A stretch of 52,867 bases of DNA, taken from the NCBI GenBank assembly GCA_013151865.1, contig JAADHN010000080.1, positions 27,647 to 80,513 on the forward strand, written 5' to 3'. Below, in pieces: positions 44,097-51,818 of this stretch. The translations under genes and the position numbers were made by a program. Source of the stretch: Kiritimatiellota bacterium (GTDB lineage Bacteria > Verrucomicrobiota > Lentisphaeria > Oligosphaerales > JAADHN01). Below the pieces are notes generated by a model that worked only from the letters and a program-made list of their open reading frames with translations, made no database searches and had not been told where the DNA came from. How positions within the stretch are numbered: position 1 is the stretch's first letter; each line of letters begins with the position of its first letter.

Positions 44097-44942
44097 TCAC
44101 GGCGCGCCGGCGGCGCCACCCTGAAGGACGCCCCGCATGTGTCGAAGCGATGCCTCGGACGTGGCGCGCGGGTCGGGACTGGAATCCTGCTCGACCACGA
44201 ACCACCCGCGGTAGCCGACTCGATCAAGTACGGCGACAACGCCTCCGAAATCGACCGCGCCGCTGCCGAGAGACGTGAAACAGGCCGCGATGTCGCCCAT
44301 GGAACGATGCCCGGACGGTTGCTCCTCGAACGGGGACGTCCCGACGTCCTTGCAGTGCATCCAGGCAACCTTATCGGACCATTCCTCGATAAAGGACACG
44401 GGATCGTGGAGGGCCAATAGCAGATGCCCCGTATCCACGCATAGCTGCCAGGTGGACCAATCGAGAAGTTCCATGTCCTCGTCGAGAAGCACTCGACTCA
44501 CCTCGTGGCTCACCACATAGTGGTTGTGGTAAAGGGGGGTACAGCCTTCCGCAGTCGCCGCGCGGGCCACGGCGTCCCAAGCACGACGCAAACGCTCGCG
44601 TTCTTGGCGGGTGCGCAGACCGGCCCGACCTTGGACCGTGCTGTAAATCACCCCATGTCCGCCGTGTTTCTTGACCCATCGCGCATAGCGCCCGGTCTGA
44701 GCCACCGACACAGCCAACCCCTTGTCGTCGATCCGCGGTCCGCCGACAAACACCACCGGCGCGAGGGGCGCGGCCTCACGGGCAAGGAAGCGGTCGATCT
44801 CGTCAAGCCCCCCATAGAGTTTCTCCAGCCAAGCCGGCGCCAACTCGACACCGTCGTAGCCCAACTCCCGCGCGGCGACAAGCACCTCGGGCAACGGCCT
44901 GTCGCCCCATCCGCACATGTGAAGTCCGAGCTTGTTTCTCAT
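44097..44942 (-). CDS. Sugar phosphate isomerase/epimerase (xylose-isomerase-like TIM barrel)
   Basis: A 281-residue AP-endonuclease-2/xylose-isomerase-like barrel protein. Typical motifs are LGLHMCGWGDRPLPEVLVAARELGYDGVELAP at the start, PLYHNHYVV in the middle (metal-site His region), CVDTGHLLLAL, AWMHCKDVG and WFVVEQD with the last metal-binding Glu. Such enzymes interconvert ketoses or inosose-type sugars using a divalent metal. No signal peptide. The ATG at 44942 follows GGGGAGGTCC; the longer frame to 45029 is not supported. It is convergent with the TIM-barrel hydrolase gene and stands alone. Together with the Gfo/Idh oxidoreductase it fits intracellular sugar conversion. Confidence 0.87.
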   Translation of the reverse strand: MRNKLGLHMCGWGDRPLPEVLVAARELGYDGVELAPAWLEKLYGGLDEIDRFLAREAAPLAPVVFVGGPRIDDKGLAVSVAQTGRYARWVKKHGGHGVIYSTVQGRAGLRTRQERERLRRAWDAVARAATAEGCTPLYHNHYVVSHEVSRVLLDEDMELLDWSTWQLCVDTGHLLLALHDPVSFIEEWSDKVAWMHCKDVGTSPFEEQPSGHRSMGDIAACFTSLGSGAVDFGGVVAVLDRVGYRGWFVVEQDSSPDPRATSEASLRHMRGVLQGGAAGAP

Positions 44943-45403
44943 CGCAGGACCTCCCCGGGATTGCCGATCACCAACCGAAAGCCGACCCGCGGCCTCGGGG
45001 CAATCGCCGCCTTGCTCGCAGCAGGCCATCCGCAGGACAGGGTTCCGGCCGTACAGAGCACTCGGCGGTAAGCAGAATGCGGGTAAAGCGCAACGATGGC
45101 CCGAGTGTCAATGATCCCACCGTGTTTTCGAGCGGGATTCGGTGTTCCGTAGGTCAAACCAGACTATTGGCTGCTCAAAACGAAAGTCAAGGGCAAGTCG
45201 TGCGGCCCAATGCCGGAGGGCCGTTTTCCCCGTCCCTCGACGCCCCTCGACGGCAACGCCTGCCCCACCCGACCGAACAAAAAAAGAAAAAATATCAAGT
45301 TATGGCTTGATATTATATCAAGCTAACTTAATATTGCTTTCGATGGCTGTCGGCGGAAGACCGCCGGTGTGTCAGACGTTTGCTGGAAGGGGACCGTACC
45401 GAC
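44943..45403. other. Divergent region upstream of the XRE regulator
   Basis: 461 bases between divergent genes. No gene was found. The last part holds a strikingly AT-rich patch (about 45280-45340) containing the operator array described separately; the first 300 bases show nothing recognisable. Confidence 0.5.
45292..45334. promoter_or_regulatory. Four-half-site operator array and putative promoter of the XRE gene
   Basis: ATATCAAG (45292-45299), CTTGATAT (45306-45313), ATATCAAG (45315-45322) and a degenerate CTTAATAT (45327-45334) alternate in orientation. The middle pair forms a perfect palindrome with a single central base, and the first pair is perfect with a 6-base gap. TTGATA (45308-45313) and TAATAT (45329-45334) could be -35 and -10 boxes with a slightly short 15-base spacer. 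Position 70 bases upstream of an XRE-type gene and inside a possible promoter suggests autorepression. Confidence 0.72.
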
Positions 45404-45958: not shown

Positions 45959-46379
45959 CTTTGGCCCGGACCGTTCATGCAGGCGCCGCCTGCGTACTCT
46001 CCCCGCCTGTTAGAAAAGACCGCCGGTCTCTGTCCCGACGCCAACCGTCTCGCCCGCTCTGCTTCCTGCCCATGTGAACGACCGGCCGACGGTTGTTGCA
46101 CAGCCCTCGGTCGCCGGCCGCAAGGAGCGGTCGTTCAATCACATGGGAGTTGCCGGCCCCGCAGGACACTCTCGCTCCTGAAGGCGGCTTGGCGACTTCC
46201 GTTTCCTGCGTGCAGCATGGTCGCCCGCCCTGCACTCGCCTGCACTCCGACCCTCGCCCGTCACAGTCCGGTCCACCGCCGTGGTCTGCCGGGGCGTCTC
46301 GACAGAACGCCTCTCGCCGCGGTCCCGCCGGCCTGGAGAAGTTGAAAATAGGAAAGCTATTGAATGGGAGGGCTGCCTT
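45959..46379. other. Intergenic region between XRE regulator and alpha-2-macroglobulin genes
   Basis: 421 bases with no credible gene. It includes a long stem-loop (46071-46145). The macroglobulin promoter is expected in the remaining part, but none is clear. Confidence 0.45.
46071..46145 (+). ncRNA. Long imperfect stem-loop, possible structured RNA or terminator
   Basis: CATGTGAACGACCG (46071-46084) pairs with CGGTCGTTCAATCACATG (46128-46145) with a 4-base bulge, and the inner GGCCGAC region can pair with GTCGCCGGCC. There is no T-run. It could terminate the XRE transcript or form part of the 5' leader of the macroglobulin mRNA. Confidence 0.35.
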
Positions 46380-49300
46380 ATGCGCACACTGCGACGTCTA
46401 CTGGAGAAACACCCCGAGATCGGTCCCGTCTCACTGGTCCTCAACCTGTTGCTCTTGACCGTCCTGGTCGCCGTATCGATTGCGGAGGGAGTCACCGCTT
46501 GGCTGACGGGCGCCCCGGGCATCCGGTCCGCGACGGTCGAATCGTCTGCGCCGGATCGAACCGCGATCATCTTGAAATTCAACACGGCCATGCCCGAGTT
46601 GGCGGTGCCGCGTCACGGGACGCCCCCATTCGTTTTCACCCCGCGCTTTGCGTACTCCCTTTACTGGAAGGGGGCACGGAGCGTATACGTGGCGCCGGTC
46701 AAGCAACTGACGCCCGGCCGGTGTTTCACGGTCGAACCCCGTCGCGGCCTTCGCGACTTGAACGGGCGTTTTCTGGATCCGACCCCGGTGAAACTGACGA
46801 TTCCTCCCGTGCGCGTCAGTGAAGTGGGAGTTCCGATTCGGCGGGATGACGAAAACACGCAACTGCAGATCTTGTTCAACGCGCCTCTTCCCGAGCACGC
46901 CTTCGGCGAACATATGAGGGTTGAATCGGTGGGAACGGGCCGCCTCACGAAAGTCGCCATGAACTGCATCGGATCGAAAGGCACTGTACTCCTGAAGCAC
47001 ACGCCGGACTTGGAGCGAATCCGCCTGACGCTGTCTCCGGGGCTGACGGCCGTCGGGGGCACGGTCCCGACTTCCCGGCCGTGGGTCCGCGAGTTGGACA
47101 TCCCCCGGGCGCTGGTGATCCGTGAGGCGGTCGCCCGAACCGGGTACAGCGATCCGAACCTCCGGATTGCCTTCAAGGTCAACGGCGCCCTGGACTGCAG
47201 TTCCGCGCTCTCGTTTATTCGGGTGAATCCTCCTGTCGAATCGCTCGCTTTGGTTCCGGGCGAAATCCAGGGACTGTACGAACTGAGGGGCGACTTCAGG
47301 AGCTATACAGTCTACCGACTTCGGTTCGCATCGGGTCTCCGGACGCGCGGGGGACGCGTGCTCGACGCCCCGATTCTGTACACCGTAGTCACTTCCCGTG
47401 GCGCAATGCAGCTCCGTTTCGCGTCTTCCGGCCTGTACTTGCCAAAACTCGGGGCCGACACCATTGCCGTCCGCGCCGCGGGGATCAAGGAATTCCAAGT
47501 GACTGCTCGGCGTATCTACGCCCGCAACCTGGTGCGTCTCGTGGTGGAGCCGCCGTGCTGGGAAACGAGCCCGGACCGACTCGGCCCCGCACGGGTTCTG
47601 AAGGTGGTTTCCGTGCCGTCCGCCGCGGCGTCGACAGCGCGGACGTTTTCCCTTTCGATGCCCGAATTAATGGGTGCAGCCCCGCCGGGGGTATACCTCC
47701 TGCAAGTGAAAACCAAGCGCGCGTGGAGCTGGAGCGGCCCGCACCGCACTCGAATCGTGGTTTGGACCCGCCTGACAGCCGCTGTCGTCCGCGGTCGCGG
47801 CCGCAGCCTCGCTGTCTGGGTGAGGGACATGAACGACCGTAGCCCGGTGGAAGGCTGTGACATCGAGGTATTGTCCGAGAGAAACCTGGTGCTCGGACGC
47901 GGACGCTCCGGCACGGGCGGCCTGGCACGCGTGAGCCTCGACCAACCGTCGGCCGCCCAGGACGAGACACCGGCTCTCGTGGTGTTCCGAAAAGGCCCGG
48001 ACCTCTCCCTGCTTCCACTCAATGCGGAGTTCGCACGTGATGAGGTCGCGTCTGGTTCCCTGGGAGAAAAGGGGTACCCGGAATCGCCCTACAGTGCGTT
48101 CGTCTATGCCGAACGCGATCTTTGCCGACCCGGGGAGTCGATGCGGTTCGCCTTCCTCGTTCGGGATCGGGACCTTCGCACGGCCGGGGGCTTTCCGGTT
48201 CGTTTCTCGATCACCGATCCCAAGGGACGTCCGTTTCTTTCGCGACGACTCCATCTCAGTACGGACGGATATGCCTCAATAGATGTCGCCTTCCCGGCAG
48301 ATGCCCGCACCGGCGGTTACCAGGCCGTTGTGGCCGGCGCTGCCCTCGCGAATGCCGCGTACGGACGTTTCTCGTTCTTCGTGCTGCCCTATGTCCCCGC
48401 CCGGCTCCGACTTCGTCTGCAAGCGGACAGGCCCCGGTACGGAGCGGACGGAAAGATCGGACTGACCGTGGCTGCACACTACTATTTCGGGCGTCCGGCC
48501 GCCGATTGTCGGGTAGACCTCGTCTGTGCTCTGCGGCCTCGGGTTTTTGCACCTCCTGCTTTTCGGGAGTTTGTTTTCGGTTTTCAGGATCCGGACCGCA
48601 CCTTGCCGCCTCCCCGCAATGCCGGCCGCCTTGTCACCGATGCCGCGGGACAGGCTCAGACGGTCCTGCCGGTCCCGACCCCGAGCGGCTGGGCCGCGCC
48701 GTTGACCATGATTCTTACGGCCGTTGCTCATCAGCCCGGGGGTCGAACCGTGGCCGCCTCGGTCGCACGCCCGATCGATCCCACCGCGTTCTACCTGGGG
48801 GTCCGACGCGAACCTCCGCCGGCGGCGACCGGCCCCGGACGGCGTGAAATCTTCGCCTGGGTCTGCCTTTCTCCGGCAGGGCGACCACGTCCCCTCCCCG
48901 CCCCGATCCGATTCAGTCTCCACCGGATCGTTTGGCGCTCAACCTTACGGCTGAACGCCGACGCCGAGTACGTGCGAACATGGACCGAGCAGGTCGTCGC
49001 CGTCACAAAAGGTACGGTCCCGGCAGCCCCGAAGGCGACCCGCGGACGCTTCGCCGTGCCGTGCCCGGCGCAAGGCTTGTGGGAGTTGCGCCTCCGGATC
49101 GGCAAGGCCGAGTCGCGTCTCCGCTTCGCTGCCGGCGCCATGACGGCCACGGTACGCTCCGCGGCCGGGAGCGCACCGGTGGTGACGCGGGACAAACCGG
49201 TCTACCGCCCCGGGGAAACCGCACGCCTTCGTTTTTCGACCGGCGCGCCCGGCCGCCTTCTGCTCTGCCTGGCCACGAACCGGGTCCTCGACGCCCGAGT

Positions 49301-51818
49301 CCTCCCGGTAAACAAGGGACCGAACACGATCTCCGTGCGCATACCGCAAACGCCTTTCGGGTGCGTGTACGCCGCGCTGTATCTCCAGACGACCCCCGGC
49401 CCCCTGAAAGGCGTCTTCCGGCCGGGCGTACGGTTCGGCCTGACGCCACTGCCCGTATCCCAGGCGCGATACCGGCTCGACGTGACCCTCGACGCGCCCG
49501 AAACCACGCGCCCGGGCACGTCGATGCGGATGGCGGTCCGACTCGAATCGAACCACGGACCGACCGCCGGACGGGTGGACCTGTTTGCCGTGGATGCCGG
49601 GATTCTGTCGCTCACGGGGTATGCCGCACCGGACCCGTTCAGCTTTTATTTCGGCAAACGTCGGTGCGGGATTCAAGTGTACGATGGGCTCGCCCATTTC
49701 TATCCCGACGTTTCCGACCTCCCACGCCTCGGCATCGGGTCGGAGGTCGGCGGCGACCAAATGTCCGGGCTGCTGCGCGATATGCCGCCGGACACGACAC
49801 GCCGGCCCGCCGTGTCGCTTCTCGGCGTCCTGGACGTGCCGCCGTCGGGTAAGGCTTCCGTAACGGTCCCCGTGCCGGATTTCAATGGCGCCCTGCGCTT
49901 CATGGCGGTCGCATGGGCCGGGTCCGGAGTCGGCGGCGGCGAACGGTTGGTACGCGTCCGCGACCGCGTCACGGTCCAGGCGACCGTCCCGCGGGCGGTG
50001 GCCGGTGGAGACGAATTCGACGTGACGGTTCACGCGGTCAACAACGACCTCCCCGAAACCCGTTGCCGATTCACTCTCAGGCTCGATGGCGGTCCTGCGA
50101 CGACCGTCGGCGAAACAACCCGGAACATCGTGCTGCCGAAACACGGCGAGGCACGGTTTTCGTTCCGCCTCGTCGCCGCCTCAGACGACAACGGCCAAGT
50201 ACGTTTCACGGTACATTGTTTTTCCGAATCCGGTGCGGAAATCGGCATCGACACGGTCGAATTCGCCGTCCGTCCCGCCGCACTGGCCATCAGCCTCTCA
50301 GGCACGACCGTCGCAGACGCGGGAAAACAGGTGCGCCTGCGTCCTCCCAGTCGCCTGAGCACCGAAACCGTCCGGTTTTCGGTCCATGTCTCGTCGGGAT
50401 ACAGCGCCGCTGTCATGCCGGCGCTCGCTTGGCTCGAGGCGTATCCCTATGGGTGCATCGAGCAGACCGCCAGTAAAGCGTTCCCGTTTCTTTACGTACG
50501 TTCCACGCGTCCTGGGGCGCTCGGGGCCGGTCAGGCGCTCCGCGGAGACCGGGCCCTCTTTGCGCAGACAATCCGAAAGGCCGTGCGACGAATTCGGCGC
50601 ATGCAGTTGCCGTCCGGCGGGTTCGCAATGTGGCCCGGCAGTCCCGAGGTGCGGCACGGAGCATCGCTCTACGCCGCCCACTTCCTCATCTGCTGCCGCG
50701 ATGCCGGCCTGGGACCCGAGACCGACGTTTGGACGGGGCTCGTGAGCTACATGAGGGCCGCGGCCGTCAATCCGCCGTCCCGACGCTCGAGCCGGTTCAG
50801 GGGCTACGCCCATTACCTGTTGGCCCGAGCCGGAAAAGCCGAACCCGGACTGGCGGAAGCCTTCCTGAAAATGAAGAAAGACGGAGACGACTCGACAGGC
50901 TATATCCTCGCCGCGACTTCACTTATCCTGGCCGGACGCGCCCATCGCGGCGCCAAATGGCTCCAAGAACTGCTTGACCGACCCAATTGGTCCCGGGACT
51001 CCGACCACCTCCTCGATACACCCGCCTCCGGAATGGCTCTGGCGGCCATTGCACTCGAACAGGCATATCCAGGTTCCCCTGCGCTCGCGGGGCTGATGGA
51101 GGCGCTGCTGCGCCGACGCGGGACCGTGAATCGACGCTGGGCCACCACCTTCGACAACGCGCTGGCCGCCACGGCCCTCCTCAGATGGCAAACCCTCAAC
51201 CCGGATGCAGAACAGACACGCGGCACGGTCAGTTTCAACGGCGGCGCGGCAACCACGGTCGGCGCCGGGGAGCCGTTCGAGTACCGGACACAAACCGGGA
51301 CACCCGCGGAATTCATCGTCACGAACCACGGACCGGGACGTCTTTTTGCGGCTTGGTTCGCCCGCGGGGTCCCTCGGACTCAACTGCTGAAACCGGAGTA
51401 CCGGGGACTCGAAGTCCACCGCGAATACCTGTCGGCGAACGGCAAACCGCAACGCCTGTTCCGCAGGGGGGACTTGGTGACGGTCCGCATCAGGCTCTCC
51501 GGAGGCCGGGCTTACCGGAACGTCGTCATTGTCGACCTGCTCCCGGGAGGCTTGGAGATCGAGAACCGCGCCATGCTCTCGAATCGTACGGCCGGCGCCG
51601 TGTTCACGGGGAAAAAACCGGACTATGTCGAAATCCTCGAAGATCGGGTGCTTTTCTTCGGCGCTTTGGACGAAAAAGGCAATACCATCCGGTACGCCTG
51701 CCGGGCCGTCTCACCCGGACGCTTTGCCGCACCGCCTGTGGCGGCGTACGCCATGTACGCCCCGGACGTCTACGCACAGGCCCCCGGCGGCGCTGCGATC
51801 CGCGTCCGGAATCAGTGA
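46380..51818 (+). CDS. Bacterial alpha-2-macroglobulin with thioester
   Basis: A 1812-residue periplasmic protease-trap protein. The N-terminus carries an uncleaved-looking membrane anchor (about 16-36, LVLNLLLLTVLVAVSIAEG) rather than a lipobox. Macroglobulin beta-domains follow: YAERDLCRPGESMRFAFLVRD is the classic MG segment near 575, DKPVYRPGETARLRFS lies near 938, and GVLDVPPSGKASVTVPVPDFNGALRFMAVAW near 1150. The reactive thioester motif YGCIEQ is intact (Cys1359, Gln1362), so covalent trapping of attackers is possible. The thioester helical domain and the receptor-like C-terminal domain complete it. The ATG at 46380 has GGGAGG 7 bases upstream. The downstream gene encodes a PBP1C-type transglycosylase, the partner seen in Escherichia coli (YfhM/PbpC). 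It would protect the cell envelope against foreign proteases. Confidence 0.93.
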   Translation: MRTLRRLLEKHPEIGPVSLVLNLLLLTVLVAVSIAEGVTAWLTGAPGIRSATVESSAPDRTAIILKFNTAMPELAVPRHGTPPFVFTPRFAYSLYWKGARSVYVAPVKQLTPGRCFTVEPRRGLRDLNGRFLDPTPVKLTIPPVRVSEVGVPIRRDDENTQLQILFNAPLPEHAFGEHMRVESVGTGRLTKVAMNCIGSKGTVLLKHTPDLERIRLTLSPGLTAVGGTVPTSRPWVRELDIPRALVIREAVARTGYSDPNLRIAFKVNGALDCSSALSFIRVNPPVESLALVPGEIQGLYELRGDFRSYTVYRLRFASGLRTRGGRVLDAPILYTVVTSRGAMQLRFASSGLYLPKLGADTIAVRAAGIKEFQVTARRIYARNLVRLVVEPPCWETSPDRLGPARVLKVVSVPSAAASTARTFSLSMPELMGAAPPGVYLLQVKTKRAWSWSGPHRTRIVVWTRLTAAVVRGRGRSLAVWVRDMNDRSPVEGCDIEVLSERNLVLGRGRSGTGGLARVSLDQPSAAQDETPALVVFRKGPDLSLLPLNAEFARDEVASGSLGEKGYPESPYSAFVYAERDLCRPGESMRFAFLVRDRDLRTAGGFPVRFSITDPKGRPFLSRRLHLSTDGYASIDVAFPADARTGGYQAVVAGAALANAAYGRFSFFVLPYVPARLRLRLQADRPRYGADGKIGLTVAAHYYFGRPAADCRVDLVCALRPRVFAPPAFREFVFGFQDPDRTLPPPRNAGRLVTDAAGQAQTVLPVPTPSGWAAPLTMILTAVAHQPGGRTVAASVARPIDPTAFYLGVRREPPPAATGPGRREIFAWVCLSPAGRPRPLPAPIRFSLHRIVWRSTLRLNADAEYVRTWTEQVVAVTKGTVPAAPKATRGRFAVPCPAQGLWELRLRIGKAESRLRFAAGAMTATVRSAAGSAPVVTRDKPVYRPGETARLRFSTGAPGRLLLCLATNRVLDARVLPVNKGPNTISVRIPQTPFGCVYAALYLQTTPGPLKGVFRPGVRFGLTPLPVSQARYRLDVTLDAPETTRPGTSMRMAVRLESNHGPTAGRVDLFAVDAGILSLTGYAAPDPFSFYFGKRRCGIQVYDGLAHFYPDVSDLPRLGIGSEVGGDQMSGLLRDMPPDTTRRPAVSLLGVLDVPPSGKASVTVPVPDFNGALRFMAVAWAGSGVGGGERLVRVRDRVTVQATVPRAVAGGDEFDVTVHAVNNDLPETRCRFTLRLDGGPATTVGETTRNIVLPKHGEARFSFRLVAASDDNGQVRFTVHCFSESGAEIGIDTVEFAVRPAALAISLSGTTVADAGKQVRLRPPSRLSTETVRFSVHVSSGYSAAVMPALAWLEAYPYGCIEQTASKAFPFLYVRSTRPGALGAGQALRGDRALFAQTIRKAVRRIRRMQLPSGGFAMWPGSPEVRHGASLYAAHFLICCRDAGLGPETDVWTGLVSYMRAAAVNPPSRRSSRFRGYAHYLLARAGKAEPGLAEAFLKMKKDGDDSTGYILAATSLILAGRAHRGAKWLQELLDRPNWSRDSDHLLDTPASGMALAAIALEQAYPGSPALAGLMEALLRRRGTVNRRWATTFDNALAATALLRWQTLNPDAEQTRGTVSFNGGAATTVGAGEPFEYRTQTGTPAEFIVTNHGPGRLFAAWFARGVPRTQLLKPEYRGLEVHREYLSANGKPQRLFRRGDLVTVRIRLSGGRAYRNVVIVDLLPGGLEIENRAMLSNRTAGAVFTGKKPDYVEILEDRVLFFGALDEKGNTIRYACRAVSPGRFAAPPVAAYAMYAPDVYAQAPGGAAIRVRNQ
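48024..48036. repeat. Iterated 13-bp palindrome, TGCGGAGTTCGCA variant
   Basis: Within the alpha-2-macroglobulin gene; encodes NAEFAR. Confidence 0.8.

Follow-up and report, generated by a model that had tools for sequence, protein, structure and literature searches.

The 52,867-nucleotide stretch of Kiritimatiellota DNA analysed here (the window) raises the question of what function is served by an AT-rich array of TATCAA/TTGATA half sites, located in the intergenic region between two divergent genes, one of which encodes an XRE-family regulator with eight cysteines in its C-terminal part (XRE/8-Cys). The array probably serves the XRE/8-Cys protein as an autoregulatory operator made up of two dyads, with binding and repression predicted from the sequence. 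The features of the locus, and the related arrays of other genomes, are shown in Table 1.

Table 1. Position of the features at the XRE/8-Cys locus (window coordinates) and of related arrays in other genomes (genome:contig:positions).
Feature	Position	Strand	Remarks
Xylose-isomerase-like TIM barrel, divergent neighbour	44097..45029	-	later ATG at 44943 possible too
Half site A	45292..45299	+	ATATCAAG, exact match
Half site B	45306..45313	-	CTTGATAT, exact match; includes TTGATA, candidate -35
Core palindrome CTTGATAT-T-ATATCAAG	45306..45322	no strand	within 3 mismatches, unique in its own genome
Sigma-70-like promoter TTGATA-N16-TAATAT	45307..45334	+	9/12 consensus matches; predicted by consensus only
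Half site C	45315..45322	+	ATATCAAG, exact match
Half site D	45327..45334	-	CTTAATAT, one mismatch; includes TAATAT, candidate -10
XRE-family regulator, 184 aa	45404..45958	+	HTH and eight-cysteine double-zinc-ribbon-like C-terminus
Bacterial alpha-2-macroglobulin (A2M)	46380..51818	+	downstream of the XRE gene
TTATCAACA inverted-pair arrays away from the XRE gene	G199:C3:4719-4811; G305:C3:120360-120452; G189:C19:33171-33316; G177:C1:59991-60169		

The sequence-only reading had described four alternating half sites, spaced by 1 and 6 bases, in an AT-rich island of GC-rich DNA and overlapping TTGATA and TAATAT boxes. Coordinates and alternation agree with this description, although only three half sites are exact and D has one mismatch; both gaps are present but the series is A-6-B-1-C-4-D, with a third gap of 4 bases. 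The island is confirmed by a GC content of 22% in 45283-45340 vs 64% for the window, and half sites B and D do overlap the hexamers of TTGATA-N16-TAATAT. ATATCAAG and its complement show exactly three copies in the 52.9-kb window, all of them inside the array. Dinucleotide shuffling of the 65-bp island (20,000 rounds) never gave three exact half sites (expected 0.008, maximum 2); therefore, local AT richness is not the explanation of the half sites. The centres of the A/B and C/D dyads, at 45302.5 and 45324.5, are 22 bp apart by coordinate arithmetic, about two helical turns, so two bound dimers would lie roughly on one face of the helix. This geometry is compatible with cooperative dimer binding, which we only infer.

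The inverted repeat lies over the candidate promoter of the XRE gene, which is predicted by consensus only: TTGATA is found at 45307-45312 and TAATAT at 45329-45334, with a spacer of 16 bases, and an alternative reading, TTGATA-N17-AATATT, has an equal score. The 1.4-kb region contains three promoter-like sites, vs 0.2 in shuffles. The XRE/8-Cys gene starts 70 bp downstream of the array, and its ATG is preceded by GGAAGGGG. In the proposed mechanism, dimers of the HTH domain would recognise the TATCAA half sites and, as B and D cover the -35-like and -10-like hexamers, their occupancy would block RNA polymerase; the outcome would be a simple negative feedback on the XRE gene.

Analysis of the protein shows a Cro/C1-type HTH above the Pfam cut-offs (HTH_31, 1.6e-13; HTH_3, 3.6e-13), and residues Q23, Q34 and S35 of this HTH are invariant in the orthologue alignment. 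The C-terminus is double-zinc-ribbon-like, its match to the Pfam DZR domain (E 1.7e-4, 22.1 bits) being under the cut-off of 27.3. Eight cysteines, at positions 83, 88, 117, 120, 128, 133, 144 and 147, are invariant in 11 orthologues. The structure model has a mean pLDDT of 67.8 and is poor outside the HTH, with low confidence in the cysteine-rich part. The same cysteine-rich domain is found in a 388-aa open frame of another genome (L013, G022:C206) after a non-XRE N-terminal part, which on reading we take to be DUF4062-like; the domain is therefore a module that is also attached to other proteins. A literature search, within the terms used, found nothing on the combination of XRE and eight-cysteine architecture.

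Three groups of known HTH regulators were compared with the locus. HipB of Escherichia coli was among the best matches of an HTH profile search of the PDB (2wiu, E 5.5e-8), and it binds cooperatively to four operators, TATCCN8GGATA, autoregulating its own operon (PMC3376134). Both share an XRE-type HTH, half sites which start with TATC, and several operators before their own promoter; furthermore, the C/D dyad, TATCA-N8-TAATA, shows the HipB geometry with one mismatch, whereas the A/B dyad, TATCA-N10-TGATA, has a spacer of 10 instead of 8. Unlike HipB, the XRE protein has an added cysteine-rich C-terminus, its half site is TATCA instead of TATCC, and no hipA-like gene comes after it, the next gene downstream being that of alpha-2-macroglobulin and not a HipA kinase partner. 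Scores were 34.7 bits with TIGR03070 (cut-off 71.65) and 21.4 with PRK09726 (cut-off 79); since they are below the curated cut-offs and hipA is missing downstream, the protein is not HipB. Repressors of the lambda/434 type show the same HTH fold (1per and 1lli were among the PDB matches) and tandem dyads about two turns apart. The lambda half site likewise starts with TATCA. However, as far as the analysis went, the XRE locus is outside any prophage, and its protein is without a cleavable C-terminal domain. MqsA-type antitoxins also combine a zinc ribbon and an HTH, and TIGR03830 matches weakly in 7/11 members; they differ by the score, which is far under the cut-off (23.8 bits for P0001, cut-off 61.8), a reversed domain order, and the absence of a visible toxin-like partner.

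Orthologues of the XRE/8-Cys gene are present both within the order of the window and in other parts of the phylum. The inner part of the core palindrome, TTGATA-N3-TATCAA (45307-45321), has one exact copy in the 6.2-Mb genome of the window (G000), one in the 14.1-Mb genome of a member of another family (G001) and two in G337, vs 0.02 and 0.16 copies expected by composition in the GC-rich genomes G000 and G001, respectively. In each of the three genomes a copy is located just upstream of the XRE/8-Cys gene, 83 bp from the ATG in G000 and 100 bp in G001, and the N3 core palindrome is thus found upstream of orthologues in two other families. In addition, TATCAAN{4,9}TTGATA is present as a single copy in G000 and in G001, in both at the XRE gene. 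The eleven orthologues that a single split of the family tree sets apart (support 84/0), which were picked after their upstream regions had been seen, contain 22 TATCAA/TTGATA words in 160-300 bp upstream, vs 1.40 in shuffles (sd 1.15, maximum 8), and are mostly without linkage to dnaA or dnaN where this could be checked. The operator words are conserved overall, although they are weak or absent in some loci: copies of the hexamer range from five down to none, with one each in L005, L007, L068 and L099, and L008 shows none but ATATCA/TGATAT instead. Half-site spacings also vary among orthologues.

These results bear on the remaining claims of the sequence-only reading. The absence of the palindrome upstream of orthologues, which it had named as refuting, is not seen in most of the nearest ones. 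Its prediction of autoregulation gains from the recurrence of the half sites upstream of orthologues, while binding and repression by the XRE protein stay putative. The expectation of other regulon members was not borne out: CTTGATAT-N-ATATCAAG has no second site in the 6.2-Mb G000 at <=3 mismatches, and TTGATANNNTATCAA with one mismatch shows a single additional site in this genome, equal to the reversed control.

Alternatively, a replication origin, present or former, could account for the array: the TATCAA words would be what is left of DnaA-box-like TTATCAACA repeats, with the XRE gene as a mere neighbour. This alternative is suggested by another order of the phylum, in which the XRE/8-Cys gene is found in 110/155 genomes and in 43/48 good ones (it is missing from 5/48), often after dnaA-dnaN. 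About 18 of the genomes searched have the gene on one contig with dnaA and/or dnaN, mostly at a distance of a few kilobases at most. The region upstream of the XRE gene in this order is full of TTATCAACA-like words (TTATCAACA/TGTTGATAA arrays), and for Cyanothece a published prediction lists TTATCAACA as a DnaA box (PMC4674748). In G364 and G301 (loci L156-L162 and L175-L179), whose dnaA sits on another contig, the cumulative GC-skew minimum coincides with the array, and in G175 it is about 0.7 kb or less away; therefore, the TTATCAACA array of the origin-linked order is probably the replication origin, oriC. The AT-rich TTATCAACA-type arrays at the skew minimum, G364:C21 near 100524 and G301:C74 near 62986, are candidate chromosomal origins. 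Within the 120-kb stretch examined, G215 and G353 have their skew minimum away from the XRE gene, so that the coincidence of gene and origin is not general. Within the terms used, the literature search found no paper on the Kiritimatiellota origin. At origin-linked loci such as L059 and L079, hexamers resembling a promoter stop only a few bases short of the XRE start codon, which, read by eye, suggests leaderless mRNAs.

The array of the window resembles these arrays in the gene that follows it; however, its words are not DnaA boxes and the skew is without a switch. GC skew along the 80-kb contig G000:C78 is negative on either side of the array, with only 7.5 kb of contig on the right-hand side, and along the 72-kb G001:C208, where the XRE gene is in mid-contig, it is positive throughout; an origin at the window locus is therefore unlikely. 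No TTATCNACA-like boxes were found in the array, by reading, or in L048, and no DnaA box cluster at the window locus or at dnaA and dnaN of the window genome, which are on two contigs other than that of the array; the oriC reading of the window array was rejected. Nor would a perfect palindrome be expected to survive in a relic, and the half sites pair up symmetrically over the predicted promoter and are conserved in several families. We thus consider an origin or relic at the window unlikely.

Gene and array separate naturally in genus g92, where the XRE gene, having left the array, is without TATCAA sites nearby (L085, L086, L089, L092). In G199 and G305, about 30 kb separate the gene from dnaN, beside which the array remains, a point which favours the origin or relic; in G189 and G177, array and gene are on different contigs, and no TATCAA sites precede the XRE gene in any of the four genomes. 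Since the gene moved and the array stayed, the array is not the gene's own in that genus, and phylum-wide upstream conservation is not evidence for an operator. The evidence for the autoregulatory operator accordingly counts only orthologues without DnaA-like clusters.

Taken alone, the array is of an ordinary kind, likely a feedback operator, and gives a sharply testable site for the uncharacterised XRE/8-Cys family. In one order this family is almost universal, with one copy per genome, and in many genomes of that order it is located beside dnaA-dnaN or the GC-skew minimum. It is conceivable, although improbable, that XRE/8-Cys is an origin-associated regulator, which would read the TATCAA core of the oriC TTATCAACA repeats and link initiation with a signal sensitive to zinc or redox state, and that the window's gene left the origin and kept the sites as an autoregulatory operator. 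Should the protein indeed recognise the TATCAA core that the origin repeats also contain, it would represent a novel kind of origin regulator; otherwise, the family is still a flag for candidate origins in poorly studied bacteria.

The array might also be an operator to which the XRE protein does not bind, either that of another regulator or one acting chiefly on the divergent gene (sugar-phosphate-isomerase-like). Its location between divergent genes and the putative status of the XRE protein as binder would fit this; however, XRE orthologues with other neighbours have these words upstream as well, and we regard this reading as quite unlikely. A promoter with a chance AT-rich palindrome, or a terminator hairpin, is very improbable: AT-rich promoter islands are common and the 10-pair stem 45303-45325 with its tail, ACTTAATATT, was scored terminator-like, but such matches equal those of shuffles (2 vs 1.8), no + strand gene ends just upstream, and the three exact half sites were not matched by shuffling (0/20,000).

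Downstream of the XRE gene, the order of this gene, A2M and the next gene is common to G000, G001 and G004. From the reading of its N-terminus, we take the gene after A2M to be PbpC-like, and the order XRE regulator, alpha-2-macroglobulin, PbpC-like is shared by three families of the order (L048, L049). As the order is kept in three families, the regulator may be functionally linked to A2M and the PbpC-like protein, an envelope-defence pair. Between the XRE and alpha-2-macroglobulin genes, the window also shows an imperfect 20-bp inverted repeat, CCCATGTGAACGACCGGCCG / CGGTCGTTCAATCACATGGG (46069-46147), with arms 39 bp apart, which could be a terminator or a small mobile repeat.
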